A DNA stretch of 64,000 bases from Veillonella criceti (GTDB lineage Bacteria; Bacillota; Negativicutes; Veillonellales; Veillonellaceae): NCBI RefSeq assembly GCF_900460315.1, contig NZ_UHIO01000001.1, forward strand, positions 768,001-832,000, given 5' to 3'. Both the position numbers and the translations under genes were made by a program. Under the pieces are notes generated by a model that saw only the letters and a program-made list of their open reading frames with translations, did not search any database and was not told the origin of the DNA. The first letter of the stretch is position 1; every line of letters begins with the position of its first letter. Shown piece after piece: positions 300 to 61,396 of the stretch.

Positions 300-2585
300 C
301 TATTTACTTAAATACTCATCAATTGCCGTAGCCGCCTGCTTACCTGCACCCATAGCTAAAATTACAGTAGCCGCACCTGTTACGGCATCACCACCAGCAA
401 ATACGCCAGGACGGGACGTAGCCCCCGTATGTTCTTCGGCAATAATACCGCCCCAAGATTGTGTTTCAAGACCTTTTGTAGTGGACCGAATCAATGGATT
501 TGGATTTGTCCCTAAGGACATAATAACCGTATCACAAGGGATAACAAATTCGGAGCCTGCAATCTCTTGTGGACGACGGCGACCAGAAGCATCTGGTTCC
601 CCCAATTCCATCTTAATGCATTTCACACCAGTAACCCAACCTTTATCATCATGTAAAATTTCAATTGGATTGGTTAAAAGATTAAACTCAACCCCTTCTT
701 CTTTAGCATGATGTACTTCCTCTGCTCGAGCTGGAATTTCTTCTTCACTACGACGATATACAATCTTCGATTCAGAACCTAAACGTAACGCTGTACGAGC
801 AGCATCCATCGCCACGTTACCAGCCCCAACGGTTACACACACTTTGCCAATTGCAATTGGTGTATCGTAACTATCATCATAGGACTTCATAAGATTAGCA
901 CGAGTCAAAAATTCATTGGCCGATAATACACCATTCGAAGATTCACCTGGAATATGCATAAATTTAGGCAAGCCTGCACCAGAACCAATAAATACAGCTT
1001 TAAAGTTTTCTTTGTCCATCAATTCATCGATCGTCACAGTACGACCAATAATAACATCAGTTTCAAACTTAACACCTAAATTTTTAATATTTTCTACTTC
1101 TTTATTTACAATACGATCTTTTGGTAAACGGAACTCAGGAATACCATAGGCTAATACGCCACCTAATTTATGAAGGGATTCAAAAACAGTAACGTCATAC
1201 CCTTTCTTTGCTAAATCACCAGCACAGCTAAGGCCAGCAGGACCTGAACCAATTACAGCCACTTTAATGCCCTTAGCTGGTTCTTTTTCACCAAATACAA
1301 CCCCATTTTGAAGATTCGTGTCAGCCACAAAACGTTCTAGTTTACCAATGGCTACCGCTTCATTGCGGATTCCCATTACACAAGCTCCTTCACATTGTTC
1401 TTCTTGCGGACATACACGTCCACAAATAGCAGGCAAGGCACTTTGCTGAGCAATAATACGGCCAGCTTCTTCGATATTGCCATGTTTTAAAGCCTGTATA
1501 AACCCAGGAATGTTAATATGTACTGGACAAGCCTGTACGCATCGAGGTACTTTACAATCTAAACAACGCTGTGCTTCTAACATAGCTTCTGTTTTGCTAT
1601 ACCCATAACACACTTCTTCAAAATTGGTCGCCCGTATAGCTGGATCTTGTTCCCGTACAGGGATTCGTTTCGTTTTATCTGTTAATTCTGTAGTTTCAAC
1701 ACTCTCTTCCGCTTTGCAGGTACAATCTGGATTAGGATGAGCTTTATCCATTTCGCGAATTAACTTACGCCCTTCTTCTGTTTTATACATAGTTTGACGT
1801 TGCATTGCATTGTCAAAATCGACTAAGTAGCCATCAAATTCTGGACCATCAACACAAGTAAATTTCACTTCATCGCCAATCGTCACACGACAAGCGCCAC
1901 ACATCCCTGTACCATCAACCATAATGGAATTCAAAGAAACAACAATAGGAATCCCTAATTCTTTAGCTGCCAAGGTAGCAAATTTCATCATAATCATCGG
2001 CCCAATGGCTACAATATGATTATATTCTTTACCTTGAGCAATTAAATCTTTCATGCAGGCGACTACATTGCCATGAAAACCGGTAGAACCATCATCCGTT
2101 GCTAAATATAAATTACCTGCTACAGAACGCATATGATCTTCATAGATAATTAAGTCTTTATTACGTGCACCAATAATAACATCAGCTTCACAACCACGAG
2201 ATTTTAAATATTTTACTTGTGGATATACAGGTGCCGTCCCTACGCCACCACAAAGAAATAAAATCTTTTTTTCTTTCAATTCTTCATCAGAAAGTTCAGC
2301 CAAGTCAGTAGGATTCCCTAAAGGCCCTACAAAATCAGACAGCAAATCACCTTCTTCTAATTTAGCCAATTTTTGTGTTGAATCACCTAAGGTCTGAAAT
2401 ACGATACTTACAGTACCTGCTTCACGATCATAGTCAGTAATCGTTAATGGCACCCGTTCACCATATTCACCATGTTTAACAATAACAAATTGGCCTGGTA
2501 AGGCAGACTCTGCCAATCGTGGAGCTAAAATGTCATACTGATACATATTGGCATGTAAAATTTCTTTGCGTACAATCTTATACAA
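300..2585 (-). CDS. nfnAB: Fused NfnA-NfnB: NADH-dependent reduced ferredoxin:NADP+ oxidoreductase
   Basis: This cytoplasmic flavoprotein should couple ferredoxin, NADH and NADP(H) by electron bifurcation. Residues about 1-280 match the NfnA/SudB type (FAD/NAD-binding fold related to the dihydroorotate dehydrogenase electron-transfer subunit), with Cys229, Cys232 and Cys244 as [2Fe-2S] ligands; nearby Asp224 is interesting because NfnA is known to use one Asp ligand. Residues about 310-761 match NfnB/SudA/GltD, with the cysteine-rich segment CLDCKVPRCVQACPV, a second Cys cluster (CGRVCPQEEQCEGACV), the FAD motif GSGPAGLSCAG and the NADP-binding motif GAGNVAMDAARTALRLG. In many species these are two genes; here they are one chain of 761 residues. 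The start is TTG at 2585, preceded by AAAGGAG at good spacing. The alternative name, glutamate synthase small subunit, is less likely because no large subunit lies nearby. Confidence 0.88.
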   Translation of the reverse strand: MYKIVRKEILHANMYQYDILAPRLAESALPGQFVIVKHGEYGERVPLTITDYDREAGTVSIVFQTLGDSTQKLAKLEEGDLLSDFVGPLGNPTDLAELSDEELKEKKILFLCGGVGTAPVYPQVKYLKSRGCEADVIIGARNKDLIIYEDHMRSVAGNLYLATDDGSTGFHGNVVACMKDLIAQGKEYNHIVAIGPMIMMKFATLAAKELGIPIVVSLNSIMVDGTGMCGACRVTIGDEVKFTCVDGPEFDGYLVDFDNAMQRQTMYKTEEGRKLIREMDKAHPNPDCTCKAEESVETTELTDKTKRIPVREQDPAIRATNFEEVCYGYSKTEAMLEAQRCLDCKVPRCVQACPVHINIPGFIQALKHGNIEEAGRIIAQQSALPAICGRVCPQEEQCEGACVMGIRNEAVAIGKLERFVADTNLQNGVVFGEKEPAKGIKVAVIGSGPAGLSCAGDLAKKGYDVTVFESLHKLGGVLAYGIPEFRLPKDRIVNKEVENIKNLGVKFETDVIIGRTVTIDELMDKENFKAVFIGSGAGLPKFMHIPGESSNGVLSANEFLTRANLMKSYDDSYDTPIAIGKVCVTVGAGNVAMDAARTALRLGSESKIVYRRSEEEIPARAEEVHHAKEEGVEFNLLTNPIEILHDDKGWVTGVKCIKMELGEPDASGRRRPQEIAGSEFVIPCDTVIMSLGTNPNPLIRSTTKGLETQSWGGIIAEEHTGATSRPGVFAGGDAVTGAATVILAMGAGKQAATAIDEYLSK

Positions 2586-2847
2586 GAGAACTCACTCCTT
2601 TAAAAAACTAAATACCTACTTGATTTCAATATATCCCTATCAAAATCAATGCCTATTAGTTACTCCCTCTCGTTACATCGATATGTAAAATACGACCTTC
2701 CCATGTCATTACTATCATTGTACACCTAATATAGTAATAATAAAAATTACATTTACGCATAATAAGTGTATTATATTTATCAAGCAGTGTCCAATTCCTA
2801 TTAAATTATAAATCACTAGATTTTAATGCTTACGACACACTTTATTC

Positions 2848-2888
2848 TAAAAAAACAGAGCAGTCTGTATTCTACTGCTCTGTTTTTA
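2848..2888 (-). terminator. Rho-independent terminator after fchA
   Basis: Perfect stem AAAAACAGAGCAG / CTGCTCTGTTTTT around an 11-base loop, with a T-run when read on the minus strand. It lies 21 bases past the fchA stop. The rest of the interval 2586-2847 is AT-rich and probably carries the nfn fusion's upstream neighbour boundary; I see no gene in it. Confidence 0.85.
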
Positions 2889-2908
2889 ATATCCTACATA
2901 TCGAACTA

Positions 2909-3529
2909 TTATAAATTTACTTTATTCAATAAAGCTTGTTCTTTTTCGTCAACGCTATTTTCAATGGCTTCCATTTTAGCATTCAAATCAGCTACAAAAG
3001 CTTCATCTTTAATGCTACCTAAATTGATTTTTACATTTAGAAACGCACCATGTACAGATGTACGAGCATTCATAGTTGCAACAGCGCCATCAGTAATCGC
3101 ATTTTGGTTACCTTTTTCAATAACGGTCGCTGCTAATGGTAGTAAAGCATTAGCCAATTCCCCAATTTTAAAGGGAACTAAGGCTGCACCTTTAGTTGCT
3201 TCTTGAATAGCTGCCGAACGAGCTTTTTTATCTTCCTCTGTATCTTTTGGCAATTTAAACGCCGCCATAATTTTATTAAATGCAGCACTATCTTCATCTA
3301 TATAAGCTAAGAATTGAGCTTTCATTTCATGAGCTTTTGACTGAATTTCTTTCATTTCTGCTTCAACAGCTGCATATTTTTCTTTCCCAATTGTCAGCGA
3401 TGCTACCATTTCAATTAAAGCAGCACCAGCAGCCCCATTGAGAGCCGCAATACTACCACCACCAGGTGCTGGTGAACTAGAACCAGTTTCATTAATAAAG
3501 CCTTCTACGGATAATGCTTTTAATTCCAT
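2909..3529 (-). CDS. fchA: Formiminotetrahydrofolate cyclodeaminase / methenyl-THF cyclohydrolase
   Basis: Small soluble enzyme (206 residues, typical for stand-alone members) that converts 5-formimino-THF to 5,10-methenyl-THF with release of ammonia, and/or hydrolyses methenyl-THF to 10-formyl-THF. The family hallmark is the glycine-rich N-terminal segment SSSPAPGGGSIAALNG, followed by an all-helical body. The start has a strong AGGAGG site just upstream. It follows fhs by about 97 bases on the same strand, and ftcD lies upstream of fhs, so the three form a likely operon that feeds the one-carbon unit of formiminoglutamate into folate. The next step is carried out by Fhs running in the ATP-forming direction. 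Confidence 0.88.
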   Translation of the reverse strand: MELKALSVEGFINETGSSSPAPGGGSIAALNGAAGAALIEMVASLTIGKEKYAAVEAEMKEIQSKAHEMKAQFLAYIDEDSAAFNKIMAAFKLPKDTEEDKKARSAAIQEATKGAALVPFKIGELANALLPLAATVIEKGNQNAITDGAVATMNARTSVHGAFLNVKINLGSIKDEAFVADLNAKMEAIENSVDEKEQALLNKVNL

Positions 3530-39073: not shown

Positions 39074-42000
39074 TTAGGATTTCTGAATTTTGCCACCATA
39101 CACATCACGGAAAATTTCATTTGTTTTATCGTCTTCATTATTAATACGAACACGCTCAACTTTATGACGATCATTATCTTCGCCAGATACGCGATCAACA
39201 CGACTATGATCTAAATTACTCAATAATGTTAATTCCGTTTGGAATTCTTGAATCCCTTTTAGCATATCACCATTCATTGGTGCACCATTTTGTAAAGCAC
39301 GATATAAAGCGGCTGCAAATTCATAGCGAGTCAAATTACGGTCACCTTTATATTCACCATCAGGATACCCTTTTAATAAGCCTCTATTCGCTAATGATTT
39401 AACAAACTGATAGGCCCAATGCTCTTTAGGTAAGTCTTGGAAATTAGTTTCCGTAGTAGCCATAGCTGGTGTGCCAATAGGAACCGTGCTATTTCTTAAT
39501 TTAGCAATTTCAGCACTTTGTGCCTGTAATTGAGCACTTTGTGCTTTAACAATTTCTTTAAGTGCTTCTACATCTTTAGCCAAAGCAACTTTAGAATTAT
39601 TAACACCACTACTTTGACCAAGTTTGAAACTTACGCCAGCATTAACCATATTTTCGCCACCGCCAAAGCTACCGCCAATACTAAACATAGTATCTTCGTT
39701 AGGACGATAATAAGCACCTACAGCAGCTGCATTAGCACCACGATAATTACCATAGCCTGCGGAGAAATCCCACTTGTCATCTGGATTAAAGTCTAATGGT
39801 TGAAGGGCTGCTAACGCTGCCGAAGCCGCACCAACACGATCAATACGATTACCAAGTTTAGACACAGCACCGCCAATAGCATTTACGGTTTTATTAGTTT
39901 CTTCTAAGTGATTTCCTAATTCAGATACTGTACCACTAATAGCATTTACCACTTGATTAGTAGCATGTAATTGACCACCATTAATAGCATCAGTAGAACC
40001 TTCACCGATTCGACCAGCTCCTACATTAGTCACCGCATTGCCACCAGCATCAATCCCTGCTTTAGTGATAGATGGACCATTAGCAATTGTTAACCCTTCA
40101 CTAGTAAGTGCCGTATTGCCAATAGTTACACCACTATTATTAACCGTTGTGCTTCCAATACTTACCGAACCTTCATTGCCAAGATTTACATCCTTAGCCA
40201 ATTTAATGGTCATTATATTGCCCTCAGCAACAACGCCAATATTATTATTTGAAAGTTTAGCCGTCTCGGTAATACCACCAGTAATACGCAATGCTTCACC
40301 AAAGCCAATGGATGCAACACCTACATCACCGTTAAAGTCTCGTTTACCCTGAATTTTATCATCTAAATCTTTTAGTTGACCTTCGGTAGCCGCTCTATTA
40401 GCTACAAAACCATTTGCCTCAGGCTTCCAAGATGTATTACCTAAGCCCGTCACATAATTGCCGGTAGTTGGACCACCAATCATATTACCGTCACTATCAA
40501 CTGGTTGAGAAGACTGATTTCCTATTTTGATACCTGTTTGACCACCAACTGTAATCGTGCCTTCCTTCTCACCATCAATAGCAATGGCTTTATCGCCTTT
40601 ACCTAATGTAATAGAATCATTAAGGTTTACTTTGTTCGTATTCTCATCAACAGTAATATTTTTACCATCTTGAGCTTTTACAGCATTGGCCGCTTTAGTA
40701 GCTTCTGTTTTAGCAATTGTTTCCACATCGCCAATGTTAGCACCATTACTATATGATTTCTCAGAGTAAACATGATTCCCCTTTTCATCTTTTACATAGG
40801 TGCCATCAGCGTTTTTATCACCACCACTAGCTACATTAGTAAGTTGTGTATTGCCTGCATTAATACCCTCTTTGGTAATACTAATTTGAGAGTCTTTAAT
40901 AGTGATTTCACCAGCATCTACTTTATTAGTATCTACACCAGACTGATTAATTGTAGTATCACCAGCTTTTATAGTATCTGCATTCACTGTACCGGCATTC
41001 ACTGTACCGGCTATAACAGAACCATCTTTACCTAAGTTAACATCTTTGTTAAGACTAATTTCTACAGCATTATCTTTTACTTTAGTTGTAATATTAGAAA
41101 CGCCTGTATTAGAAGTTTCACCAGTAGATGTCCCTTCGGTTATGCCACCTTTAATTTGGATAGCTTTACCAAGATCTTGTTTAGCGGATATTAACTTACC
41201 ATCGGCATCTGTATTTTCACCAGTTAAAGCAAAACCACCAGTCGCATTAGGTCCCGTACCATTGGTTACAGACTGTACTGCCTTGGATACAACTTCAAGC
41301 TGATCTTCTGTCGCTGCACGACCAGATACAATATCTGGATTTGCTGTATTCCATTCTGTATTCGTTAAACCAGTAACGAAATTACCTTCTTTTGTTACGC
41401 CACCTTTAGTCGTAACTGATTGTGCACCTACTTTTACGGTTCCAGCAGTCACAGTATTTAAACCAATAATATCTTTAGCTAAGCGTACATCAAGAACAGC
41501 ATTGCCGTCTTTATCTTTCGTCGCTACCACACCAACATTGTTAGCGTCAGATAAAGCATCGCTCTCAGTTACACCACCAGATACAGTGACTTTCTTATTT
41601 AATTTAACTGCTGCACTGCCTTGGTCGCCAGCATATACCATGCCATCATCAAGGGTCGCCACTTCATGCGTTGTACCTGCTTGGTCTTCGTATACGATAC
41701 GAGTTAAGCCATCTTTACCATTTTGACCACTTACACCATCAACACCTGGTTGGCCTTCTATTACATGGATGTCAGCAGAAGTAGATTGTCCATCTTTGCC
41801 TGGTGCACCAGTTAAACCGATGTGGCCTTCAGAGCCGTCTTTACCATCTTTGCCATTTTTAGCAGAAATAGTTACGCCATCTTTACCATCTTTGCCTTTG
41901 ACACTAATGCCATCTTTGCCATCAATGCCTACGCCAGACTTACCATCAGCACCATTGATACCCATCTTGCCATCAACGCCATCTTTGCCGTCTTTACCTG

Positions 42001-45000
42001 GGCCACCAATGGATACATCACCAGTTAAGCCTACCGTAATCTTACCGGTTGTTGGATCTGCCACAGTTGAGATATTTTGACCATCCCCAACGATTTGTAA
42101 AGTATCACCAAGGTTACGATGTACTTTAGTACCATTGTCATCAGAGAAGTTTAAGCCTTTTTGCTCAGCTTCACTAGCAAAGTGTTTCACATCACCAATA
42201 TTCGCTGCATTGGTATTATTATCATATACTGGTTTATCGTTTGCATCCTTACCAGAAGCACCACTAGCTACGTTCTGAATTTGTGTACCATCAGCATCGC
42301 CTTCAAGAGATACCTTATTTTTATTGATTGTGCCATCATCATTCAAATCATACTTAACAGCACGATCATTTAGATGATTTAAACCAGCAGCAGATGCCAC
42401 ATCATCAATAACAACATCTTCAATGGCCGCATTAGGATCATTAACATTTTTCACCTTCAACGTCACTTTATTATCAGTTACTTTATATGCACCATTAGAA
42501 CCATCAGCTGGATTTTGGATTAAACGATAGTCTGTTTTAGCATTAATTTTTTCTGTTAAATCACCAGATACTACTTTCAATTGATCTTCTGTAGCTGCAC
42601 GGCCAGATACAATATCTGGATTTTTTGTATTCCAGTCTGTATTCGTTAAACCAGTAACGAAATTACCAGTTTCTGTTACCTTGCCTTCAGTCGTAGCCGA
42701 TTGTGCACCTACTTTTGCGGTTCCAGCAGTCACAGTATTTAAACCAGTAATATCTTTAGCTAAGCGTACATCAAGAACAGCATTGCCGTCTTTATCTTTC
42801 GTCGCTACTACACCAATATTATCATCAGTAGACAACGCTTTGCTATCAGTTACGCCACCCGATACAGTGACTTTTTTATTTAATTTAACTGCTGCACTGC
42901 CTTGGTCACCAGCATATACCATGCCATCATCAAGGGTCGCCACTTCATGCGTTGTACCCGCTTGGTCTTCGTATACGATGCGAGTTAAACCATCTTTACC
43001 TGGAGTTCCACCAACACCTGGTTGTCCTTCTATTACATGAATGTCTGCAGAAGTAGATTGTCCATCTTTACCCGGCGCACCGGTTAAACCGATGTGGCCT
43101 TCAGAACCGTCTTTACCATCTTTGCCATTTTTAGCAGAAATAGTTACGCCATCTTTACCATCTTTGCCTTTGACACTAATGCCATCTTTGCCATCAATGC
43201 CTACGCCAGATTTACCATCAGCACCATTGATACCCATCTTGCCATCAACGCCATCTTTGCCGTCTTTACCTGGGCCACCAATAGATACATCACCAGTTAA
43301 GCCTACCGTAATCTTACCGGTTGTTGGATCTGCCACAGTTGAGATATTTTGACCATCCCCAACGATTTGTAAAGTATCACCAAGGTTACGATGTACTTTA
43401 GTACCTTTGTCATCGGAGAAGTTTAAGCCTTTAGTTGTTACATCAGAGCTAATGCCATCAACAGCTGCTTTCACTTGACCTTCCGTAGCGGCACGATTCT
43501 CTACAATACCCTCGGTACTTGGATTCCAAGTCGTATTATCTAGACCAGTCACATAATTTTCAGTTTTAGCAGTACCACTAGTTTTATTACCATCAGCATC
43601 AATCACAGTAGGTGTTACTTCTTGCTTACCAATTACTATGCCTGGTTTACCATCATTGCCATCGTTACCGTCTTGACCATTTACAACGATTTTGTCAGCA
43701 CCGATAGTAGTTGTACTCTTAGTACCTTCTGCACCAGCTTCACTACCTTCAGCCGGTGTAGTCTTCGTAATCGTTACACCATCGTTATTTACAATTGTAT
43801 CACCTGTAGTCACAGAACCTGTGTTACCAAGATTGATATCTTTAGCTAATTGGACTTTTAATTTTCCGTCAGCCGTTGCATTCACACCAATATTTTTATC
43901 AGTTAATATATTAGCATCGGCACCACCGATAATATCTAATTGTTCATTAAGTTTTTTCTTAATGACTTTAGATTCATCAGTTACCCCTTCAGCATTTGGC
44001 TGTCCATTATCACCGGCATATTTTTGGCCATCTTCAAGTGTCGCTACTTGATGTGTCGCACCCGTTTCATCTTCATATACAATACGAGTTAAACCATCTT
44101 TACCAGCTTCACCATCAGCGCCTTTAACACCATTAACGCCTGGTTCACCTTTAATAACATGGATGTCTGCTGAAGAGCCTGGCTTACCATCTTTACCAGG
44201 TGCGCCAGTCAAGCCAATATGACCTTCAGAGCCAGGAATGCCGTCTTCACCATCTTTGCCATCCTTAGCATAGATAGTAACACCATCTTTACCATCAGCC
44301 CCTTTAACGCTAATGCCATCTTTACCATCAATACCTACGCCAGACTTACCATCAGCACCATTAATACCCATCTTACCATCAACGCCATCTTTGCCGTCTT
44401 TACCTGGGCCACCAATAGATATATCACCAGTTAAGCCTACCGTAATCTTACCGGTTGTTGGATCTGCTACAGTTGCAATATTTTGACCATCACCAATGAT
44501 TTGTAAGGTATCGCCAAGATTACGATGTACTGTAGCACCTGTATCACCGGAGAAGTTTAAGCCTTTTTGTTCTGCTTCACTAGCAAAGTGTTTCACATCA
44601 CCAATATTCGCTGCATTTGTATCATTATCATATACTGGTTTATCGTTTGCATCCTTACCAGAAGCACCACTAGTGAGATTTGTAATCTGATCATTACCAG
44701 CATCAATACCAGCAGTAGTTACCGATGGACCATTAGCAATTGTCAAGCCACTATCCGTAACTGTAGTCGTGCCATTGGAACCAACAACAGTTAAACTATC
44801 TTTATTAAGACTAGTTACAGGATTTACTGGCTTACCATTTTCATCAACTTCAGCACCATTAGGTGTAAAGTTAATGGAACCATCTTCAGTAAGGTTAACA
44901 TCTTTCGCTAATTGAACTTTTAATTCTCCATCAGCTGTTGCATTAACCCCAATATTGTTATCCGTTAATGTATCAGCCTCAGCGCCACCGATGATGTTTA

Positions 45001-48000
45001 ATTGTTCATTAAGTGTCTTAGAAATTACTTTATCAGCTTTGTTATCCCCAGCAAATTTCAAGCCATCATCCATGGTCGCTACATTATGACCATCTACATC
45101 TAAACGAGTGGCTGGCTTACCATCTAAGGTATTAACTACATCACCCATAGCAATTGTTACAGATGGATTAGTAGGTTGGCCATTTGTGCCCGTTACTGGT
45201 TCGCCTTTAATAGTAATTGTGCCACTTTCACCATTAAGAGCCACACCGGAACCGTCTTTGCCATTAGCAGATACAGAACCTTTATCACCATCAACAACAG
45301 CAGAGGTACCATCTTGGCCCTTAGCTGTCACTGTGCCTGTTGCGCCATCAATCGCTACGGAAGAACCATCTTTACCATTGACTGCAAGAGCGCCGTCTTT
45401 ACCTTCAACTGCATTGCCTTCACCGTCAACACCGTCTTTGGAACCTAAGCTTACGTTATTGCTCAAGCCCACTTCGATAGTTCCATTTGTGCTGTCAGTC
45501 GAAGTTACAACACCATCTTTACCAACAATGCCTAAAGTCTGACCCAATTCACGTTTAACAGTGCCCTTGTCATCAGCTGTAAAGGTTAAGCCTTTTTCTA
45601 CTACAGCATCTGTCGCTGCTTTTACTTGCCCTTCAGTGGCGGCACGATTTTCTACAATACCGTCTTTACTTGGATTCCAAGTGGTATTGTCTAAACCAGT
45701 CACATAATTACCTGTTGTCGCCGTACCAGTAGATTCCTTGCCATCGCTTGCAATCACAGTTGGAGTGACTTCTTGATTACCAATTACTACGCCTGGTTTA
45801 CCATTTTCACCACTTGTAGTATTAACAACAACTTTGTCTGCCCCAATAGTAGTAGTCGCACTTGGCGTTGTAGCGCCTTCTTCAGTGTTAACTACGGTTA
45901 AGCCATCTTTATTTAATGTTGTAGTACCTACATCACCAAAAGAAACGCTACCAGTATCACCTAAATTTAAGTTTGGATTTAAAGAGACTTCAAATTCTTT
46001 GCCCTTTGTTGCATTAAGTTTTGTCTGCTCCACTTTAATGTTAGTTTCGCCAGCTTTAGCCACTACAGATTCTTCTTTATTGGCATTTGTAAGCGCTGTC
46101 ATAGCCTCATTGGAAAGACCTACAGTATATCCAGTGGTACGATCCGCAGCCGTACTTGCAGTGCTCTCTACGGTAATGTAGTTTTGGCCTGTAGCCGCAC
46201 CTACAGTGGCTTTATCTGCACTTACTACATAAGTTGTAGGCTCACTAGCTGTGCTAGCTATAGTGGAAACAGAAGTATTCACACCAGCCGTTACTTTAGA
46301 CGTAGCCGCTTTAATCTGACCTACCGTCGCGGCATCGCTGTTATTTACACCATCCGCTAAGCCTGTAATCTTCTTATCGCCCATAGCAATACCAGCATCA
46401 GATAGAGTCGGACCATTGGTTACCGTAACTTTATTGGTTGTAATGCCACCCTCATTAGAGATAGAGGTTTGGCCTGCTGTTACCCCTTGGTTAGTAAAGG
46501 TATTGTCACCGGCTTTTACACCACTAGCATTCACTGTTGTGGTATTCGTACCATCAGTAAAGATTGCGCTAGTTAAACCAGTTAATTCTTTAGCTAACTG
46601 TACTTTTAATTCTCCGCCAGTAGTTGCATTAACACCAATATTTTTGTCGGTTAATTTATTGGCCTCAGCGCCACCAATGATATCTAATTGCTGGTTAAGG
46701 GTCTTAGAAATTACTTTATCAGATTTATTATCACCAGCAAATTTCAAGCCATCATCCATGGTCGCTACATTATGACCATCTACATCTAAACGAGTGGCAG
46801 GCTTACCATCTAAGGTATTAACTACATCACCAGTAGCAATTGTTACGGATGGAGTTGTTTTATTTTCACCTTCACCCGTTGGATTACCAGTAATTGTGAT
46901 AGTGCCAGCTTCACCATTAAGAGCCACACCGGAACCGTCTTTGCCATTAGCAGATATAGTGCCTTTATCACCATCAACAACAGCAGAGGTACCATCTTGG
47001 CCCTTAGCTGTCACTGTGCCGGTTGCGCCATCGATAGCTACAGAAGAACCATCTTTACCATTGACTGCAAGGGAGCCATCTTTACCTTCCACTTTATTGC
47101 CTTCACCGTCAACACCGTCTTTGGAACCTAAGCTTACGTTATTACTCAAGCCCACTTCGATAGTTCCTTTTGTGCTGTCAGTCGAAGTTATAACACCATC
47201 TTTACCAACAATGCCTAAAGTCTGACCCAATTCACGTTTAACAGTGCCCTTGTCATCAGCTGTAAAGGTTAAGCCTTTTTCTACTACAGCATCTGTCGCT
47301 GCTTTTACTTGCCCTTCCGTGGCGGCACGATTTTCTACAATACCGTCTTTACTTGGATTCCAAGTGGTATTGTCTAAACCAGTCACATAATTACCTGTTG
47401 TCGCCGTACCAGTAGATTCCTTGCCATCGCTTGCAATCACAGTTGGGGTGACTTCTTGATTACCAATTACTACGCCTGGTTTACCTTCAACGCCATCTTT
47501 ACCGTCTTGACCATTTACAACAATTTTGTCCGCACCGATAGTAGTAGTCGCACTTGGCGTTGTAGCGCCTTCTTCAGTTTTAACTACGGTTAAGCCATCT
47601 TTATTTAATGTTGTAGTACCTGCATCACCAAAGGAAACGCTACCAGTATCACCTAAATTCAAGTTTGGATTTAAAGAGACTTCAAACTCTTTGCCCTTTG
47701 TTGCATTAAGTTTTGTCTGCTCCACTTTAATGTTAGTTTCGCCAGCTTTAGCCACTACAGATTCTTCTTTATTGGCATTTGTAAGTGCTGTTATAGCCTC
47801 ACTGGAAAGCCCTACAGTATATCCAGTTGTACGATCCTCAGCCGTACTTGCAGTGCTTTCTACGGTAATGTAGTTTTGACCTGTAGCTGCACCTACAGTG
47901 GCTTTATCTGCGCTTACTACATAAGTTGTAGGCTCACTAGCTGTGCTAGCTATAGTGGAAACAGAAGTATTAACACCAGCCGTTACTTTAGACGTAGCCG

Positions 48001-51000
48001 CTTTAATCTGACCTACCGTCGCGGCATCGCTGTTGTTTACACCATCCGCTAAGCCTGTAATTTTTTTATCGCCCATAGCAATACCAGCATCAGATAGCGT
48101 AGGACCATTGGTTACCGTAACTTTATTGGTTGTAATGCCACCCTCATTAGAGATGGAGGTTTGTCCTGCTGTTAATCCTTGATTAGTAAAGGTATTGTTA
48201 CCGGCTTTTACACCACTAGCATTCACTGTTGTAGTGTTAGTACCATCAGTAAAGATTGCGCTAGTTAAACCAGTTAATTCTTTAGCTAATTGAACTTTTA
48301 GTTTTCCGTCATCTGTTGCATTAACCCCGATATTGTTATCCGTTAATGCATTAGCATCCGCACCACCAATGATGTCTAATTTTTCATTAAGTTTCTTCTT
48401 AATAATTTTAGAATCATCAGTTACGCCTTCAGCATTTGGTTGACCATTATCGCCGGCATATTTTTGACCGTCTTCAAGTGTTGCTACTTGATGGGTCTCC
48501 CCCGTTTCATCTTCATACACAATACGAGTTAAACCATCTTTACCAGCTTCACCGTCAGCGCCTTTAACACCATTAACGCCTGGTTCACCTTTAATAACAT
48601 GGATGTCTGCCGAAGAACCTGGCTTACCATCCTTACCAGGTGCGCCAGTCAAGCCAATATGACCTTCAGAGCCAGGAATGCCGTCTTCACCATCTTTGCC
48701 ATCCTTAGCGTAGATAGTAACACCATCTTTACCATCAGCGCCTTTAACGCTAATGCCATCTTTGCCATCAATGCCTACGCCAGATTTACCATCGGCACCG
48801 TTAACACCAACAGAGCCATTCACGCCGTCTTTGCCATTTACGCCATCTTTGCCACCGATAGTCACTTCGTTGCTTAAACCAATAGTAACCGTTTTATCTT
48901 CCGCATTGGCTTCTGTCGTAATGCCATTACCACCGGCAAGCTTAATTGTACTGCCCAAATCTTGTTTAACTTCCACAGATTTGCCATTGCCATCTGTATT
49001 GTCAGCCGTTAAACCAAATGGACCAGCGGCTTCAGGTAATTGGATTCCGTCAACAATACGTTTAACATCGTCAATATTAGCTGCATTGGAGCCAATATCA
49101 CCACCACTTGCTACATTAGAGATCTGCTGACTACCAGCACTAATACCGTCTTTCGTAATGGCGATGTTCTTCGTTGCATCACCTGTCGGATTAGCGATTG
49201 TTAAACCATTATTATTTAAAATGGTAGTCGTATTATCTGTTGGATTACCAAAGTTAATAGAACCTGCATTAGTAAGATTAATGTCTTTTACTAATTGAAC
49301 TTTTAACTCTCCACTAGCCGTTGCATTAACACCAATATTTTTGTCGGTTAATTTATTGGCCTCAGCGCCACCAATGATATCTAATTGCTGGTTAAGGGTC
49401 TTAGAAATTACTTTATCAGCTTTATTATCACCAGCAAATTTCAAGCCATCATCCATGGTTGCTACATTATGACCATCTACATCTAAACGAGTGGCGGGCT
49501 TGCCATCTAAGGTATTAACTACATCACCAGTAGCAATTGTTACGGATGGAGTTGTTTTGTTTTCACCTTCACCCGTTGGATTGCCAGTAATTGTGATAGT
49601 GCCATCTTCACCATTAAGAGCCACACCGGAACCGTCTTTGCCATTAGCAGATACAGAACCTTTATCGCCATCAACAACAGCAGAGGTACCATCTTGGCCC
49701 TTAGCTGTCACTGTGCCAGTTGCGCCATCGATAGCTACGGAAGAACCATCTTTACCATTTACTGCAAGGGAGCCGTCTTTGCCTTCACCGTCAACACCGT
49801 CTTTGGAACCTAAGCTTACGTTATTGCTTAAGCCCACTTCGATGTTTCCTTTTGTGCTGTCAGTCGAAGTTACAACACCATCTTTACCAACAATACCTAA
49901 AGTCTGACCCAATTCACGTTTAACAGTGCCCTTATCATCAGCTGTGAAGATTAGGCCTTTTTGTGCTACAGCATCCGTCGCTGCTTTTACTTGCCCTTCA
50001 GTGGCGGCACGATTTTCTACAATACCGTCTTTACTTGGATTCCAAGTGGTATTGTCTAAACCAGTCACATAATTACCTGTTGTCGCCGTACCAGTAGATT
50101 CCTTGCCATCGGTTGCAATCACAGTTGGAGTGACTTCTTGATTACCAATTACTACGCCTGGTTTACCATTTTCACCACTTGTAGTATTAACAACAACTTT
50201 GTCTGCCCCAATAGTAGTAGTCGCACTTGGCGTTGTAGCGCCTTCTTCAGTTTTAACTACGGTTAAGCCATCTTTATTTAATGTTGTAGTACCTACATCA
50301 CCAAAAGAAACGCTACCAGTATCACCTAAATTTAAGTTTGGATTTAAAGAGACTTCAAACTCTTTGCCCTTTGTTGCATTAAGTTTTGTCTGCTCCACTT
50401 TAATGTTAGTTTCGCCAGCTTTAGCCACTACAGATTCTTCTTTATTGGCATTTGCAAGTGCTGTTTTAGCCGCATCGCTTAAGCCTACAGTATATCCAGT
50501 GGTACGATCCGCAGCCGTACTTTCAGTGCTCTCTACGGTAATGTAGTTTTGGCCTGTAGCCGCACTAACAGTCGCTTTATCTGCGCTTACTACATAAGTT
50601 GTAGGCTCACTGGCTGTGCTAGCTATAGTGGAAACAGAAGTATTAACACCAGCCGTTACTTTAGACGTAGCCGCTTTAATCTGACCTACCGTCGCGGCAT
50701 CGCTGTTGTTTACACCATCCGCTAAGCCTGTAATTTTTTTATCGCCCATAGCAATACCAGCATCAGATAGCGTAGGACCATTGGTTACCGTAACTTTATT
50801 GGTTGTAATGCCACCCTCATTAGAGATGGAGGTTTGTCCTGCGGTTAACCCTTGATTAGTAAATGAATTGTCACCGGCTTTTACACCACTAGCATTCACT
50901 ATTGTAGTATTCGTACCATCGGTAAAGGTTGCGCTAGTTAAACCAGTTAATTCTTTAGCTAACTGTACTTTTAATTCTCCGCCAGTGGTTGCATTAACAC

Positions 51001-54000
51001 CAATATTTTTGTCGGTTAATTTATTGGCCTCAGCGCCACCAATGATATCTAATTGCTGGTTAAGGGTCTTAGAAATTACTTTATCAGCTTTATTATCACC
51101 AGCAAATTTCAAGCCATCATCCATGGTCGCTACATTATGACCATCTACATCTAAACGAGTGGCTGGCTTACCATCTAAGGTATTAACTACATCACCCGTA
51201 GTAATTGTTACGGATGGAGTTGTTTTATTTTCACCTTCACCCGTTGGATTACCAGTAATTGTGATAGTGCCGTCTTCACCATTAAGAGCCACACCGGAAC
51301 CGTCTTTGCCATTAGCAGATACAGAACCTTTATCGCCATCAACAACAGCAGAGGTACCATCTTGCCCCTTAGCTGTCACTGTGCCGGTTGCGCCATCGAT
51401 AGCTACAGAAGAACCATCTTTACCATTGACTGCAAGGGAGCCATCTTTACCTTCCACTTTATTGCCTTCACCGTCAACACCGTCTTTGGAACCTAAGCTT
51501 ACGTTATTACTCAAGCCCACTTCGATAGTTCCTTTTGTGCTGTCAGTCGAAGTTATAACACCATCTTTACCAACAATGCCTAAAGTCTGACCCAATTCAC
51601 GTTTAACAGTGCCCTTGTCATCAGCTGTAAAGGTTAAGCCTTTTTGTGCTACAGCATCCGTCGCTGCTTTTACTTGCCCTTCAGTGGCAGCACGATTTTC
51701 TACAATACCATCTGTACTTAGATTCCAAGTAGTATTATCTAAACCAGTCACATAATTACCAGTTTTAGCCGTACCACTAGATTCCTTGCCATCGGTTGCA
51801 ATCACAGTTGGAGTGACTTCTTGATTACCAATTACTACGCCTGGTTTACCATTTTCACCACTTGTAGTATTAACAACAACTTTGTCTGCCCCAATAGTAG
51901 TAGTCGCACTTGGCGTTGTAGCGCCTTCTTCAGTGTTAACTACGGTTAAGCCATCTTTATTAAGACTAGTTACAGGGTTTACAAGCTTACCATTTTCATC
52001 AACTTCAGCACCATTAGGCGTGAAATTAACAGAACCAGCTTCAGTAAGATTAATGTCTTTAGCTAATTGAACTTTTAGTTTTCCGTCATCTGTTGCATTA
52101 ACACCAATATTGTTATCCGTTAATGCATTAGCATCAGCACCACCAATGATGTCTAATTTTTCATTAAGTTTCTTCTTAATAATTTTAGAATCATCAGTTA
52201 CGCCTTCAGCATTTGGTTGACCATTATCGCCGGCATATTTTTGACCGTCTTCAAGTGTTGCTACTTGATGGGTCGCCCCCGTTTCATCTTCATACACAAT
52301 ACGAGTTAAACCATCTTTACCAGCTTCACCGTCAGCGCCTTTAACACCATTAACGCCTGGTTCACCTTTAATAACATGGATGTCTGCCGAAGAACCTGGC
52401 TTACCATCCTTACCAGGTGCGCCAGTCAAGCCAATATGACCTTCAGAGCCAGGAATGCCGTCTTCACCATCTTTGCCATCCTTAGCGTAGATAGTAACAC
52501 CATCTTTACCATCAGCGCCTTTAACGCTAATGCCATCTTTGCCATCAATGCCTACGCCAGATTTACCATCGGCACCGTTAACACCAACAGAGCCATTCAC
52601 GCCGTCTTTGCCATTTACGCCATCTTTGCCACCGATAGTCACTTCGTTGCTTAAACCAATAGTAACCGTTTTGTCTTCCGCATTGGCTTCTGTCGTAATG
52701 CCATTACCACCGGCAAGCTTAATTGTACTGCCCAAATCTTGTTTAACTTCCACAGATTTGCCATTGCCATCTGTATTGTCAGCCGTTAAACCAAATGGAC
52801 CAGCGGCTTCAGGTAATTGGATTCCGTCAACAATACGTTTAACATCGTCAATATTAGCTGCATTGGAGCCAATATCACCACCACTTGCTACATTAGAGAT
52901 CTGCTGACTACCAGCACTAATACCGTCTTTCGTAATGGCGATGTTCTTCGTTGCATCACCTGTCGGATTAGCGATTGTTAAACCATTATTATTTAAAATG
53001 GTAGTCGTATTATCTGTTGGATTACCAAAGTTAATAGAACCTGCATTAGTAAGATTAATGTCTTTTACTAATTGAACTTTTAACTCTCCACTAGCCGTTG
53101 CATTAACACCAATATTTTTATCCGTTAATGTATCAGCATCAGCACCACCAATGATGTTTAATTGTTCATTAAGCTTTTTAGAAATTACTTGCTTAGCTTT
53201 ATTATCCCCAGCAAATTTCAAGCCATCATCCATGGTTGCTACATTATGACCATCTACATCTAAACGAGTGGCGGGCTTGCCATCTAAGGTATTAACTACA
53301 TCACCAGTAGCAATTGTTACGGATGGAGTTGTTTTGTTTTCACCTTCACCCGTTGGATTGCCAGTAATTGTGATAGTGCCATCTTCACCATTAAGAGCCA
53401 CACCGGAACCGTCTTTGCCATTAGCAGATACAGAACCTTTATCGCCATCAACAACAGCAGAGGTACCATCTTGGCCCTTAGCTGTCACTGTGCCAGTTGC
53501 GCCATCGATAGCTACGGAAGAACCATCTTTACCATTTACTGCAAGGGAGCCGTCTTTGCCTTCACCGTCAACACCGTCTTTGGAACCTAAGCTTACGTTA
53601 TTGCTTAAGCCCACTTCGATGTTTCCTTTTGTGCTGTCAGTCGAAGTTACAACACCATCTTTACCAACAATACCTAAAGTCTGACCCAATTCACGTTTAA
53701 CAGTGCCCTTATCATCAGCTGTGAAGATTAGGCCTTTTTGTGCTACAGCATCCGTCGCTGCTTTTACTTGCCCTTCAGTGGCGGCACGATTTTCTACAAT
53801 ACCGTCTTTACTTGGATTCCAAGTGGTATTGTCTAAACCAGTCACATAATTACCTGTTGTCGCCGTACCAGTAGATTCCTTGCCATCGGTTGCAATCACA
53901 GTTGGGGTGACTTCTTGATTACCAATTACTACGCCTGGTTTACCATTTTCACCACTTGTAGTATTAACAACAACTTTGTCTGCCCCAATAGTAGTAGTCG

Positions 54001-57000
54001 CACTTGGCGTTGTAACGCCTTCTTCAGTTTTAACTACGGTTAAGCCATCTTTATTTAATGTTGTAGTACCTACATCACCAAAAGAAACGCTACCAGTATC
54101 ACCTAAATTTAAGTTTGGATTTAAAGAGACTTCAAACTCTTTGCCCTTTGTTGCATTAAGTTTTGTCTGCTCCACTTTAATGTTAGTTTCGCCAGCTTTA
54201 GCCACTACAGATTCTTCTTTATTGGCATTTGCAAGTGCTGTTTTAGCCGCATCGCTTAAGCCTACAGTATATCCAGTGGTACGATCCGCAGCCGTACTTT
54301 CAGTGCTCTCTACGGTAATGTAGTTTTGGCCTGTAGCCGCACTAACAGTCGCTTTATCTGCGCTTACTACATAAGTTGTAGGCTCACTGGCTGTGCTAGC
54401 TATAGTGGAAACAGAAGTATTAACACCAGCCGTTACTTTAGACGTAGCCGCTTTAATCTGACCTACCGTCGCGGCATCGCTGTTGTTTACACCATCCGCT
54501 AAGCCTGTAATCTTTTTATCGCCCATAGCAATACCATCATCAGATAGCGTAGGACCATTAGTTACCGTAACTTTATTGGTTGTAATGCCACCATCATTAG
54601 AGATAGAAGTTTGACCTGCGGTTAACCCTTGATTCGTAAAGGTATTGTTACCAGCTTTTACACCACTAGCATTCACTGTTGTAGTATTAATACCATCAGT
54701 AAAGATTGCGCTAGTTAAACCAGTTAATTCTTTAGCTAACTGTACTTTTAATTCTCCACCAGCTGTTGCATTAACCCCGATATTGTTATCCGTTAATTTA
54801 TTGGCCTCAGCACCACCAATGATGTTTAATTGTTCATTAAGCTTTTTAGAAATTACTTGCTTAGCTTTATTATCACCAGCAAATTTCAAGCCATCATCCA
54901 TGGTCGCTACATTATGACCATCTACATCTAAACGAGTGGCTGGCTTACCATCTAAGGTATTAACTACATCACCAGTAGCAATTGTTACGGATGGAGTTGT
55001 TTTGTTTTCACCTTCACCCGTTGGATTGCCAGTAATTGTGATAGTGCCATCTTCACCATTAAGAGCCACACCGGAACCGTCTTTGCCATTAGCAGATACA
55101 GAACCTTTATCACCATCAACAACAGCAGAGGTACCATCTTGACCCTTAGCTGTCACTGTGCCTGTTGCGCCATCAATCGCTACGGAAGAACCATCTTTAC
55201 CATGTACTGCAATAGAACCGTCTTTACCAGCACCCTTAGAATCAGCTGCTTCTCCAAGCTGTAAGTTATTATCGAGTCCTACTGTAAGAGTACCTGTTTC
55301 AGCATTAGCTGTTGTTACAACACCATTTTCGCCCACAACCTTAATGCTTTCTCCTGATGGCTTCGTCACCGTGTTATTATCCCCATCAGATAAAGCAAAT
55401 TGACCATTACCAGCACTTGGCGCTAAGGTACTAACAATACGTTTAACATCATCTATATTAGCTGCATTAGAACCAGTGTTTCCACCACTAGCCACATTAG
55501 AAATTTGTTTATTCCCTGCATTAATACCTGTATTTGTTATAGAAGGACCATTAGCAATGGTTAAGCCGTCTTTATTTAGCGTTGTGCTGCCAGTATTACC
55601 AAAAGATACACTGCCATTTGCACCAAGATTTAAATTAGGATTTAGAGAGACTTCAAACTCCTTACCCTGTGTTGCATTAAGTTTTGTCTGCTCTACTTTG
55701 ATATTAATTTCACCAGCTTTGGCTACTACCGATTCCTCTTTATTGGCATTAGTAAGCGCTGTTTTAGCCGCATCACTTAAGCCTACAGTATACGCAGTGG
55801 TTCTGTTGGCCGCCGTACTTGCCGTGCTCGCGACAGTAACATAAGTAGGATCCGCGGTTGCCACAGTAGCTTTATCCGCACTTACAGTATATTTTTTAGG
55901 AGCTGCACTTGTGCTATTCGTTGCACTTACCACTGTATTAACCCCAGCCTCTACCACTGGTAATTGTCCAACATTAGCTGCATCACTAGCTACACTCCCA
56001 GCTTTAAGATTCGTAATAGGGGTACCGCCCATACTAATTCCAGTATTGTTAATAAATATCTTCTGTCTATAGCCAGGAGCACCTGGAATCTCAACACTAG
56101 AAACACTTACAGTATTGCCAGTAATAGTAGTTGTACCATTTCTAAAGCCACTATTATCAATCGTAGTATTACCAGTGGTTACGCTACCTGTTTCACCTAA
56201 GTTTAAATTAGGCTTTAAGGACACTTCAAATTGCTTGCCACCTGTAGAGTTTAGTGCACTCTGAGGATTAACAACAAGATTGACTTCACCGTCTTTAGCT
56301 ACAACCGATTCTTCTTTATTGGCATTAGCTAGTGCTGTTTTAGCCGCATCACTTAAGCCTACGGTATAGGCCGTTGTTCGGTTGGCCGCTGTACTTGCGG
56401 TGCTATCTACAGTCAAATAGGTTTCACCAGATTTTGCAGCCAGAGTCGTATGATTAGCGCTTACTGTATATGTTACTGGAGACGATGCCGTACTGTTAGT
56501 GGTAGACACAGATACATTTGTGCCAGCTACTACATTAGGAAGTTGTCCTACTGTAGCCGCCGAATTACTCGCTGTACCATTTGCTACATTAGTAATAGGC
56601 TTTCCATCCATATTAAGCCCTGTTTTATTTAAAATGATTCGTTTAAAAGAACCATCTGCTTTTGGTATATTAATTTGGTCTACAGTAATTTGATCGCCTA
56701 AAATTTTAGTCGTTCCATTAGACAGACCCTCCTTATTAATCACTGTATTACCAACGGTTAAACTACCACTTTCACCTAAGTTTAAATTAGGCTTTAAGGA
56801 CACTTCAAATTGCTTACCGCCAGTAGCATTTAGTGTACTTTGTGGATTAACAACAAGATTGATTTCACCGTCTTTAGCTACAACCGATTCTTCTTTATTT
56901 AATTTACTTTTACTATCAGACGTAAGATCTAATGTATACGCTGTTGTGCTCGTGTTCGCATTCACTGTGGATGTAACAGCCACTACTGAATTAGGGGCTG

Positions 57001-58537: not shown

Positions 58538-58612
58538 CGAATTATCTCCTTTCAACCTAACCTAAAATTCCTAGCTCACTCACAAAATAAAGTGTAATTA
58601 AATACTTATCAG

Positions 58613-60693: not shown

Positions 60694-61206
60694 TCAGTAT
60701 TTTACAACAGGGCTTACAAAGCGACTGAGTAAAAAAAAATGAGCTATATGGATTTGTACATCATCATACCCAGCTTGTTCAGCACGGACAGCGGCCGTAA
60801 TAAATTGATCGACTACTTCATGAATCTCAGCCTTTGTCATATTATTAATATCTGTTTCATGATACATCCCAGACGCAGACTTTTTATAAAAAGCGCCTAA
60901 TGCTAATTGACTAAAGGCAGGCGTATTCGTTGCGTGTAAAATATCAACCAATTTTTTATGTTGTGAAATTAGCGAATCATTGGATAATCGCATCATACCA
61001 CCCATATAAAAATCATTATCTGCTACAGATGTAAAACCTGTAATAATTCCGCCAATATGACCTTTGGCCAATTCTTCATATATGTCATACCCAATATCAG
61101 TAGTACCACCATCTGGTGTAGCAATGCCTTCCCATGTATCTGATCTAATAATACGATTGTTAAATGTTACATGATTCAATGTAACTGATTCAAATAATTG
61201 CTTCAT
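60694..61206 (-). pseudogene. N-terminal fragment of an old yellow enzyme (NADH:flavin oxidoreductase)
   Basis: About 170 residues of an FMN-dependent (beta/alpha)8 barrel that normally has 340 or more. Recognisable blocks: LFESVTLNHVTFNNRIIRSD at the N-terminus, GGIITGFTSV, AFSQLALGAFYK, and AGYDDVQIHIAHFFLLSRFVSP, where the normal protein has [22 protein letters not shown] and then continues. The coding sequence stops a few residues after this block, next to the DsbA-like remnant. The promoter side is intact and faces the hxlR gene, as is common for HxlR-controlled oxidoreductases. Probably non-functional. Confidence 0.75.
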
Positions 61207-61396
61207 ACTTTCACATCCCATTTTATATACTTTAATTACATTTTTATTACATTGACTAATTTAGTTTCAACTGATGTGCTTATTATAGCAACAAGAGTAT
61301 TTTTATGTAAGTACACAACTTTTTCTGCCTTACTTTTAATACTTAAAATGTTACGTATAAAACTAACTTGTATCTAAAAGGAGATATTATAAAGAA

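Follow-up and report, generated by a model that had tools for sequence, protein, structure and literature searches.

The window that we analysed, i.e. the whole stretch of 64,000 nucleotides from Veillonella criceti, encodes a very large trimeric autotransporter adhesin, and the locus raises the question what such a protein does with the residues that follow its YadA-type barrel, in particular with the SLH domain among them. An earlier reading of the sequence only had placed a coiled coil, an SLH domain and a charged tail there, and had proposed that these parts hang into the periplasm and could tether the adhesin to peptidoglycan, as the SLH domain does in the case of OmpM. Going by the comparative evidence set out below, the tail probably does grip the cell wall from the periplasm.

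The open reading frame of the adhesin extends over 39074..58555 of the minus strand. Its start codon is likely the TTG at 58537, which is preceded at eight bases by AAAGGAG and which yields 6,487 residues, the same figure as was given before. A Pfam scan restricted to the two ends of the protein recovered ESPR (4.5e-14) and YadA_stalk (2.8e-11) at the N-terminus and, within the last 500 residues and in this order, YadA_stalk (9e-9), YadA_anchor (6.8e-12; 45.7 bits against a cut-off of 22.7) and SLH (9.3e-9), where the latter three all exceed the curated cut-offs; a match to YadA_head (1.6e-4) lies below its cut-off. The protein is a type Vc trimeric autotransporter by its YadA_anchor, ESPR and stalk repeats, and is predicted to form a homotrimer with a passenger at the surface. 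The neighbouring genes (mfd-like, a polysaccharide exporter, MazG and an amino acid permease) suggest no functional link. The features are collected in the table.

Features of the adhesin gene and of its C-terminal region (positions refer to the window)
Feature	Position	Strand	Evidence
Trimeric autotransporter adhesin	39074..58537	-	ESPR and YadA_stalk N-terminal, YadA_anchor near the C-terminus
YadA membrane anchor, four barrel strands per chain	39623..39787	-	E 3.8e-13 (genome search), Pfam, model strands
34-residue helix after the barrel	39497..39598	-	model helix, residues 84-117
Linker, partly disordered	39443..39496	-	pLDDT <50 at model residues 125-134
Single SLH domain with HWAY and TRYE	39314..39442	-	E 1.5e-9 (genome search), 9.3e-9 (Pfam), alignment with OmpM of the same genome
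Conserved post-SLH element: EF..EL helix, beta hairpin ending ERVRI, RDVYG	39083..39250	-	E 1.3e-22, model strands 215-221 and 230-235

Two observations on the surrounding DNA stand on their own. The passenger (window 41286-55763) contains long direct repeats, namely a 300-base block that is present six times (84-95% identity to the reference copy) and further blocks 3,777 bases apart with an identity of up to 99%. The repeats suggest that parts of the gene were duplicated recently, or else that misassembly is a risk. Furthermore, a 175-residue open reading frame at 60694-61221 covers only the first 186 of the 342 positions of Oxidored_FMN and is probably a truncated gene.

The last strand of the YadA barrel is internal to the adhesin chain: 182 residues lie C-terminal to the Pfam anchor match, in keeping with the earlier count of about 180, and the protein thereby has no barrel at its extreme C-terminus, unlike the proteobacterial type Vc members. 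An AlphaFold2 model of the last 257 residues (single chain, based on the 61-row alignment A4; mean pLDDT 75.5, pTM 0.40) shows barrel strands at residues 26-35, 38-47, 53-61 and 67-74, and arranges the chain as barrel (26-74), helix (84-117), linker, SLH helices and a hairpin (215-221/230-235). Together with the Pfam matches, the model thus bears out the order barrel, coiled coil, SLH and tail that had been read from the sequence. Judging by the model, the 34-residue helix is likely to be a coiled coil, which would be trimeric. In the case of the barrel, Foldseek returned YadA (2lme, 1.1e-3), Hia (2gr8, 1.3e-3) and AtaA (9vnj, 1.7e-3), all with probability 1.00. In solved barrels of the YadA/Hia type the C-terminus of the chain faces the periplasm, and for this reason the tail should hang into it; the topology proposed in the sequence-only reading therefore agrees with an established fold, of which YadA and Hia themselves are among the matches. 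What had been called a charged tail is present as well, reaching 39077, but it is not mere charge, as it holds a conserved beta-hairpin motif, which reappeared in a second model that comprised SLH and tail (123 residues, pLDDT 72.5).

The starting point of the earlier reading, namely that the barrel strand normally comes last, does not apply in Negativicutes, where a post-barrel tail is usual. All 18 YadA anchors of the V. criceti genome are followed by a tail of 50 to 182 residues, which consists of helix, SLH and conserved tail in six cases and is without SLH, and coiled-coil-like in appearance, in the other 12. Elsewhere in the class 29 YadA loci were fetched, 27 of which could be read to the stop (i.e. 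were uncut by a contig end), and all 27 have a tail, of 28 to 189 residues, with an SLH in eight of them (degenerate in one). A tail peculiar to the adhesin gene, considered as a candidate explanation, was rejected, given that all 18 YadA proteins of the genome and many genomes of the class have one. The tails are not uniform: in the YadA proteins L209 and L215, from another family of the class, the post-barrel tail has 45 residues and is not coiled-coil-like by eye, and in L213 a degenerate SLH, with its loop and TRYE altered, comes after a long Pro/Thr/Gln-rich linker.

The specific order of barrel and SLH is also recurrent. A search with a profile of the six SLH tails of the genome (A3) matched all 200 class genomes, a bare tally that was left unused because the SLH part also matches OmpM-like proteins, but in 59 of the 200 the best match has an E < 1e-80, spanning the barrel through to the SLH in the rows listed at that level, and this order is therefore not a matter of chance. 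Among the best 80 of 188 relatives, the architecture was seen in named genomes of Veillonella, Megasphaera, Anaeroglobus, Dialister and Negativicoccus, and likewise of Colibacter, Acidaminococcus, Phascolarctobacterium, Succiniclasticum and Mitsuokella, the best named relative within that set being found in Veillonella sp. R32.

As two thirds of the tails in the genome do without an SLH (12/18), tails have a role apart from this domain. It is conceivable, then, that the tail serves mainly in assembly, i.e. that its coiled coil, SLH and hairpin initiate trimer formation in the periplasm, or secure the trimer there, during export of the passenger, with wall binding secondary or absent. A stabilisation of the trimer was likewise suggested by Poppleton et al. 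2017 (PMC5491611, in the sections available), and one YadA adhesin (L222) combines barrel, coiled coil and hairpin without any SLH. We nevertheless consider an assembly role of this kind rather unlikely as the main explanation, and what weighs against it is the nature of the SLH itself: it has near-invariant OmpM-type tyrosines and a near-invariant arginine and glutamate in TRYE, which trimerisation alone would hardly need.

Whole-genome and Pfam scans found one SLH match in the adhesin frame and no three tandem SLH repeats of the S-layer type. The solved structures nearest to this domain are those of OmpM1 of V. parvula (8bz2, 1.8e-19; 8bys, 3e-19), with SlpA (5.3e-15) and Sap (8.5e-12) behind them. 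At the level of the fold, the model of SLH and tail matches 8bz2 in Foldseek (5.3e-5) and, by VIA-align, with a Z of 10.6 over 77 residues (2.3 A, 40% identity), the next row having a Z of 3.4. Within the genome, the SLHs of the six adhesins have a mean identity of 45% to those of three OmpM or OmpM-like proteins versus 27% to the repeats of a triple-SLH protein. The HWAY and TRYE motifs correspond to positions Y36 and Y65 of OmpM1; W34, Y36, G58 and TRYE are identical between the adhesin SLH and an OmpM of the same genome, and both tyrosines are absent from all three repeats of the triple-SLH protein. The conservation was assessed in alignment A4, which combines the window adhesin with 60 of the 80 best loci (four were lost to a failed anchor pattern and 16 were left out by hand, several of them as near-copies). 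The Y36 equivalent is a tyrosine in 60 of the 61 rows and the Y65 equivalent in all 61, and the arginine and glutamate of TRYE are kept almost throughout. The Y36 equivalent is also present in 79 of the 80 loci, a count that is biased upward because these loci are the top 80 of 188 in a ranking by similarity to a query that itself has an SLH; the one apparent lack of Y65 among them (L097) is a pattern error, TRYE being present. Residue counts were taken from A4 and the 80 loci only, because the pattern of W and Y by which a further alignment was chosen (A5, 50 of 75 loci) excludes L115.

The two tyrosines of OmpM1 have been proposed to recognise polyaminated peptidoglycan; they are located away from the sugar groove, and Y36 is not conserved among non-OmpM SLH domains (Silale et al. 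2023, PMC10628300, cited here and below from the sections available). The tyrosine signature and the overall likeness of the SLH hence favour an OmpM-type ligand for the adhesin, as far as homology can indicate this, and the analogy with OmpM that had been drawn earlier is strengthened at three levels, namely those of sequence, chain fold and the two tyrosines. Experimentally, full-length VpOmpM1 bound the sacculi of V. parvula, whereas its barrel alone did not, and E. coli sacculi were not bound; with the SLH in isolation, no binding to the sacculi of either species was obtained (PMC10628300), which implies that the context (barrel, trimer) matters, and which can also be counted in favour of a role in assembly. 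Moreover, 8bz2 represents a compact form of the isolated OmpM1 stalk that its authors think is non-binding (PMC10628300), so that the conformation which our model matches is probably unable to bind.

Taking these lines together, we hold it reasonably probable that the protein is a type Vc adhesin whose periplasmic tail adds a second attachment to that of the barrel. The three barrel ends would continue in the periplasm as a trimeric coiled coil and linkers, after which the three SLH domains, one per chain, would come together in a single three-fold head as in trimeric OmpM. This head would bind polyaminated peptidoglycan non-covalently, so that the wall would hold the fibre in addition to the outer membrane, in which its barrel sits. 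The hairpin at the end of the chain would be a conserved companion of the head, probably a cap or a trimer clamp.

Results from V. parvula bear on how much such an attachment would contribute. Single deletions of vtaG, vtaH and vtaI, which encode SLH-tailed adhesins, left aggregation and plate biofilm unchanged, whereas biofilm was reduced when eight cluster genes, among them a split gene with an SLH, were deleted together (PMC7549365, in the sections available). In the same species the outer membrane detaches upon loss of three of the four ompM copies (PMC10628300), and since V. parvula encodes SLH-tailed adhesins all the same, these cannot replace OmpM. The vta deletions and the effect of ompM loss both speak against a strong role of the tails. 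The length of the fibre provides no further argument for one. In the V. criceti genome, the open frames of SLH-tailed adhesins range from 893 to 6,495 residues, with two of just 893 and 941, and those of the others from 338 to 3,364, and the lengths do not differ significantly (Mann-Whitney p = 0.57, 6 versus 12 genes). The supposition that longer fibres carry the SLH thus had to be dropped for this genome, and the earlier suggestion that the second anchor would help a 6,500-residue fibre withstand pull finds no support in it.

The absence of a link between SLH tail and fibre length would fit a different explanation, namely that SLH tails provide general tethering of the outer membrane beside OmpM and do not hold the fibre against pull, and the sharing of residues and chain fold with OmpM would fit it too. 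We deem this improbable, however, considering that the outer membrane of V. parvula detaches on loss of three ompM copies despite its SLH-tailed adhesins (PMC10628300), and that only 6 of the 18 anchors in the V. criceti genome have the domain.

The distribution of the SLH on a tree of barrels (45 rows and 81 columns, of low resolution; L193 and L217, cut by a contig end, were left out) requires 8 changes of the label, compared to a mean of 12.2 after shuffling, and none of 500 shuffles came out as low. At least 2 changes are forced by supported branches. The label is clustered, yet not stable, and tails have been gained, lost or swapped, as these forced changes imply. Such turnover, together with the existence of the degenerate SLH of L213, could be taken to mean that the domain binds no wall polymer at all and is a shuffled element that is kept by recombination among adhesin genes and has little function. 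The near-invariance of the proposed ligand-site residues across genera and the clustering of the label make that reading very improbable.

The element behind the SLH has a distribution of its own. All six SLH adhesins of the genome keep EF..E, VD and ER.R in this position, and a profile of the hairpin piece (A6) matches exactly these six genes (E up to 0.01), the next match in the genome having an E of 0.297; the possibility that the hairpin is common to OmpM or other SLH proteins was discarded for this genome on the same grounds. In the case of 100 class genomes, A6 gave 71 matches in 24 genomes, and YadA anchors numbered 280 in 49 genomes. Of the 71 matches, 34 were fetched, 35 were placed by their coordinates inside listed A3 matches, and the last two are both in genome G055. 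Barrel and hairpin share one frame in 32 of the 34 fetched matches (6 from V. criceti, 26 from others); in the remaining two, the locus starts at a contig edge (L170) or the open reading frame opens within the barrel (L186). G055 encodes the SLH-free adhesin with coiled coil and hairpin referred to above (L222, C8:13500-15300) and, near a contig end, a 46-residue open reading frame that matches the hairpin profile (L223). The motif is found in 79 of the 80 loci that are the best of 188 relatives. The barrel tree, with its 45 proteins, includes 14 SLH tails; 10 of these have the motif, and it is absent from the other four (L198, L201, L202 and L213). Two simple rules were rejected as a result, namely that the hairpin is universal on SLH adhesins (the latter four have an SLH and no hairpin) and that it occurs only beside an SLH (L222 has a hairpin and no SLH). 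The hairpin accompanies adhesin tails, mostly but not always next to an SLH, and L222 hints either at a loss of the SLH or at a hairpin that acts alone. The PDB profile alignment extends past the SLH into the stalk and the start of the barrel of OmpM, a low-confidence stretch for which no homology is claimed. The fold searches with the model of SLH and tail listed no PDB match to the hairpin, a negative of no weight, since the hairpin was folded only as part of longer models. We tentatively put forward, as a doubtful though not far-fetched extension, that Negativicute adhesins have in the combination of SLH and hairpin a periplasmic anchor module separate from OmpM, and that its ERVRV hairpin would make an independent contact (with the wall, the SLH head or another envelope protein) by which the pull on the fibre would be coupled to the wall.

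The ompM genes themselves provided a separate observation. The ends of contig C1 share an overlap of ~26.8 kb at 98.7-99.8% identity by segment (L188, i.e. G000 C1:1-20000, versus L189), and between the two copies a segment of 8.6 kb is inverted (10836-19413 of L188 versus L189). The inverted segment ends within two inverted ompM genes. Common to both is a 427-base inverted repeat of 98% identity, running from the gene start through the signal peptide, SLH and stalk, so that the same 5' part of ompM is paired with different porin barrels. The inversion may be a real swap of ompM barrels or an artefact of the assembly. In the region 12574-19934 of L188, the inverted ompM genes have transposase genes of the Mutator-like and ISL3 types both between them and next to them, along with a 175-residue open reading frame with a recombinase zinc-ribbon domain as its only Pfam match. 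We found no report of an ompM inversion in Veillonella in the open-licence literature.

The architecture and the wall-binding hypothesis are already known. Three V. parvula adhesins were described as having an SLH after their YadA anchor, together with a suggested OmpM-like interaction with peptidoglycan in the periplasm (Poppleton et al. 2017, PMC5491611), and all Veillonella YadA anchors were described as having an SLH or a coiled coil behind them, with non-covalent attachment to the wall named and with the proteins kept within the trimeric autotransporter family (Béchon et al. 2020, PMC7549365; both in the sections available). The proposal of a wall tether is therefore not new, having been published in 2017 and 2020. 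Our additions are modest, namely the OmpM tyrosines in adhesins, the conserved hairpin and the lack of a tie between SLH tail and fibre length; the available main-text sections of these two papers contain no mention that we found of the hairpin or of OmpM tyrosines in Veillonella adhesins. A search of the open-licence literature by title and start of the abstract found no later paper on Veillonella SLH-tailed adhesins. If the tail does bind the wall, the adhesion force on a giant fibre would reach the peptidoglycan, beyond the outer membrane alone, and the residue signature and hairpin make it easier to test both this binding and its importance.

With respect to known systems, PDB 9gh4 ('Cell surface protein'), which we take to be CbpF of Fusobacterium nucleatum, aligns with the adhesin through the anchor and the start of the coiled-coil tail (E 1.4e-15), and its aligned stretch, unlike the adhesin, is without an SLH. 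The closest counterparts are the Veillonella proteins Vpar_0041, Vpar_0100 and Vpar_1664 (PMC5491611) and VtaG, VtaH and VtaI (PMC7549365), which have the same YadA anchor followed by an SLH and for which the same periplasmic, non-covalent attachment to peptidoglycan was proposed; the window adhesin is a different and much longer member of this group. Two of the V. parvula SKV38 genes described by Béchon et al. 2020 were recovered by their coordinates, with L101 overlapping vtaG and L148 overlapping FNLLGLLA_00037. OmpM (VpOmpM1; 8bz2, 8bys, 8bym) forms trimers to which every chain contributes one SLH, and has a periplasmic coiled coil (PMC10628300), as we propose for the adhesin, but its SLH is N-terminal and each of its chains has a 16-strand porin barrel, whereas the SLH of the adhesin is C-terminal, behind a YadA-type barrel. 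The trimeric autotransporters of Streptobacillus have a domain with affinity for peptidoglycan behind the YadA anchor as well, albeit one of the OmpA family where the adhesin has an SLH (PMC7549365). AtaA of Acinetobacter (9vnj) offers a proteobacterial precedent, being a trimeric autotransporter anchor that is reinforced from the periplasm, in this case by TpgA, which about doubles the extraction force in simulations (PMC13082670, in the sections available); TpgA is a separate protein, whereas the tail of the adhesin is part of its own chain. If our reading is true, the reinforcement that TpgA gives to AtaA would be built into the adhesin itself, and diderm Firmicutes would put the OmpM-type SLH to a second use.
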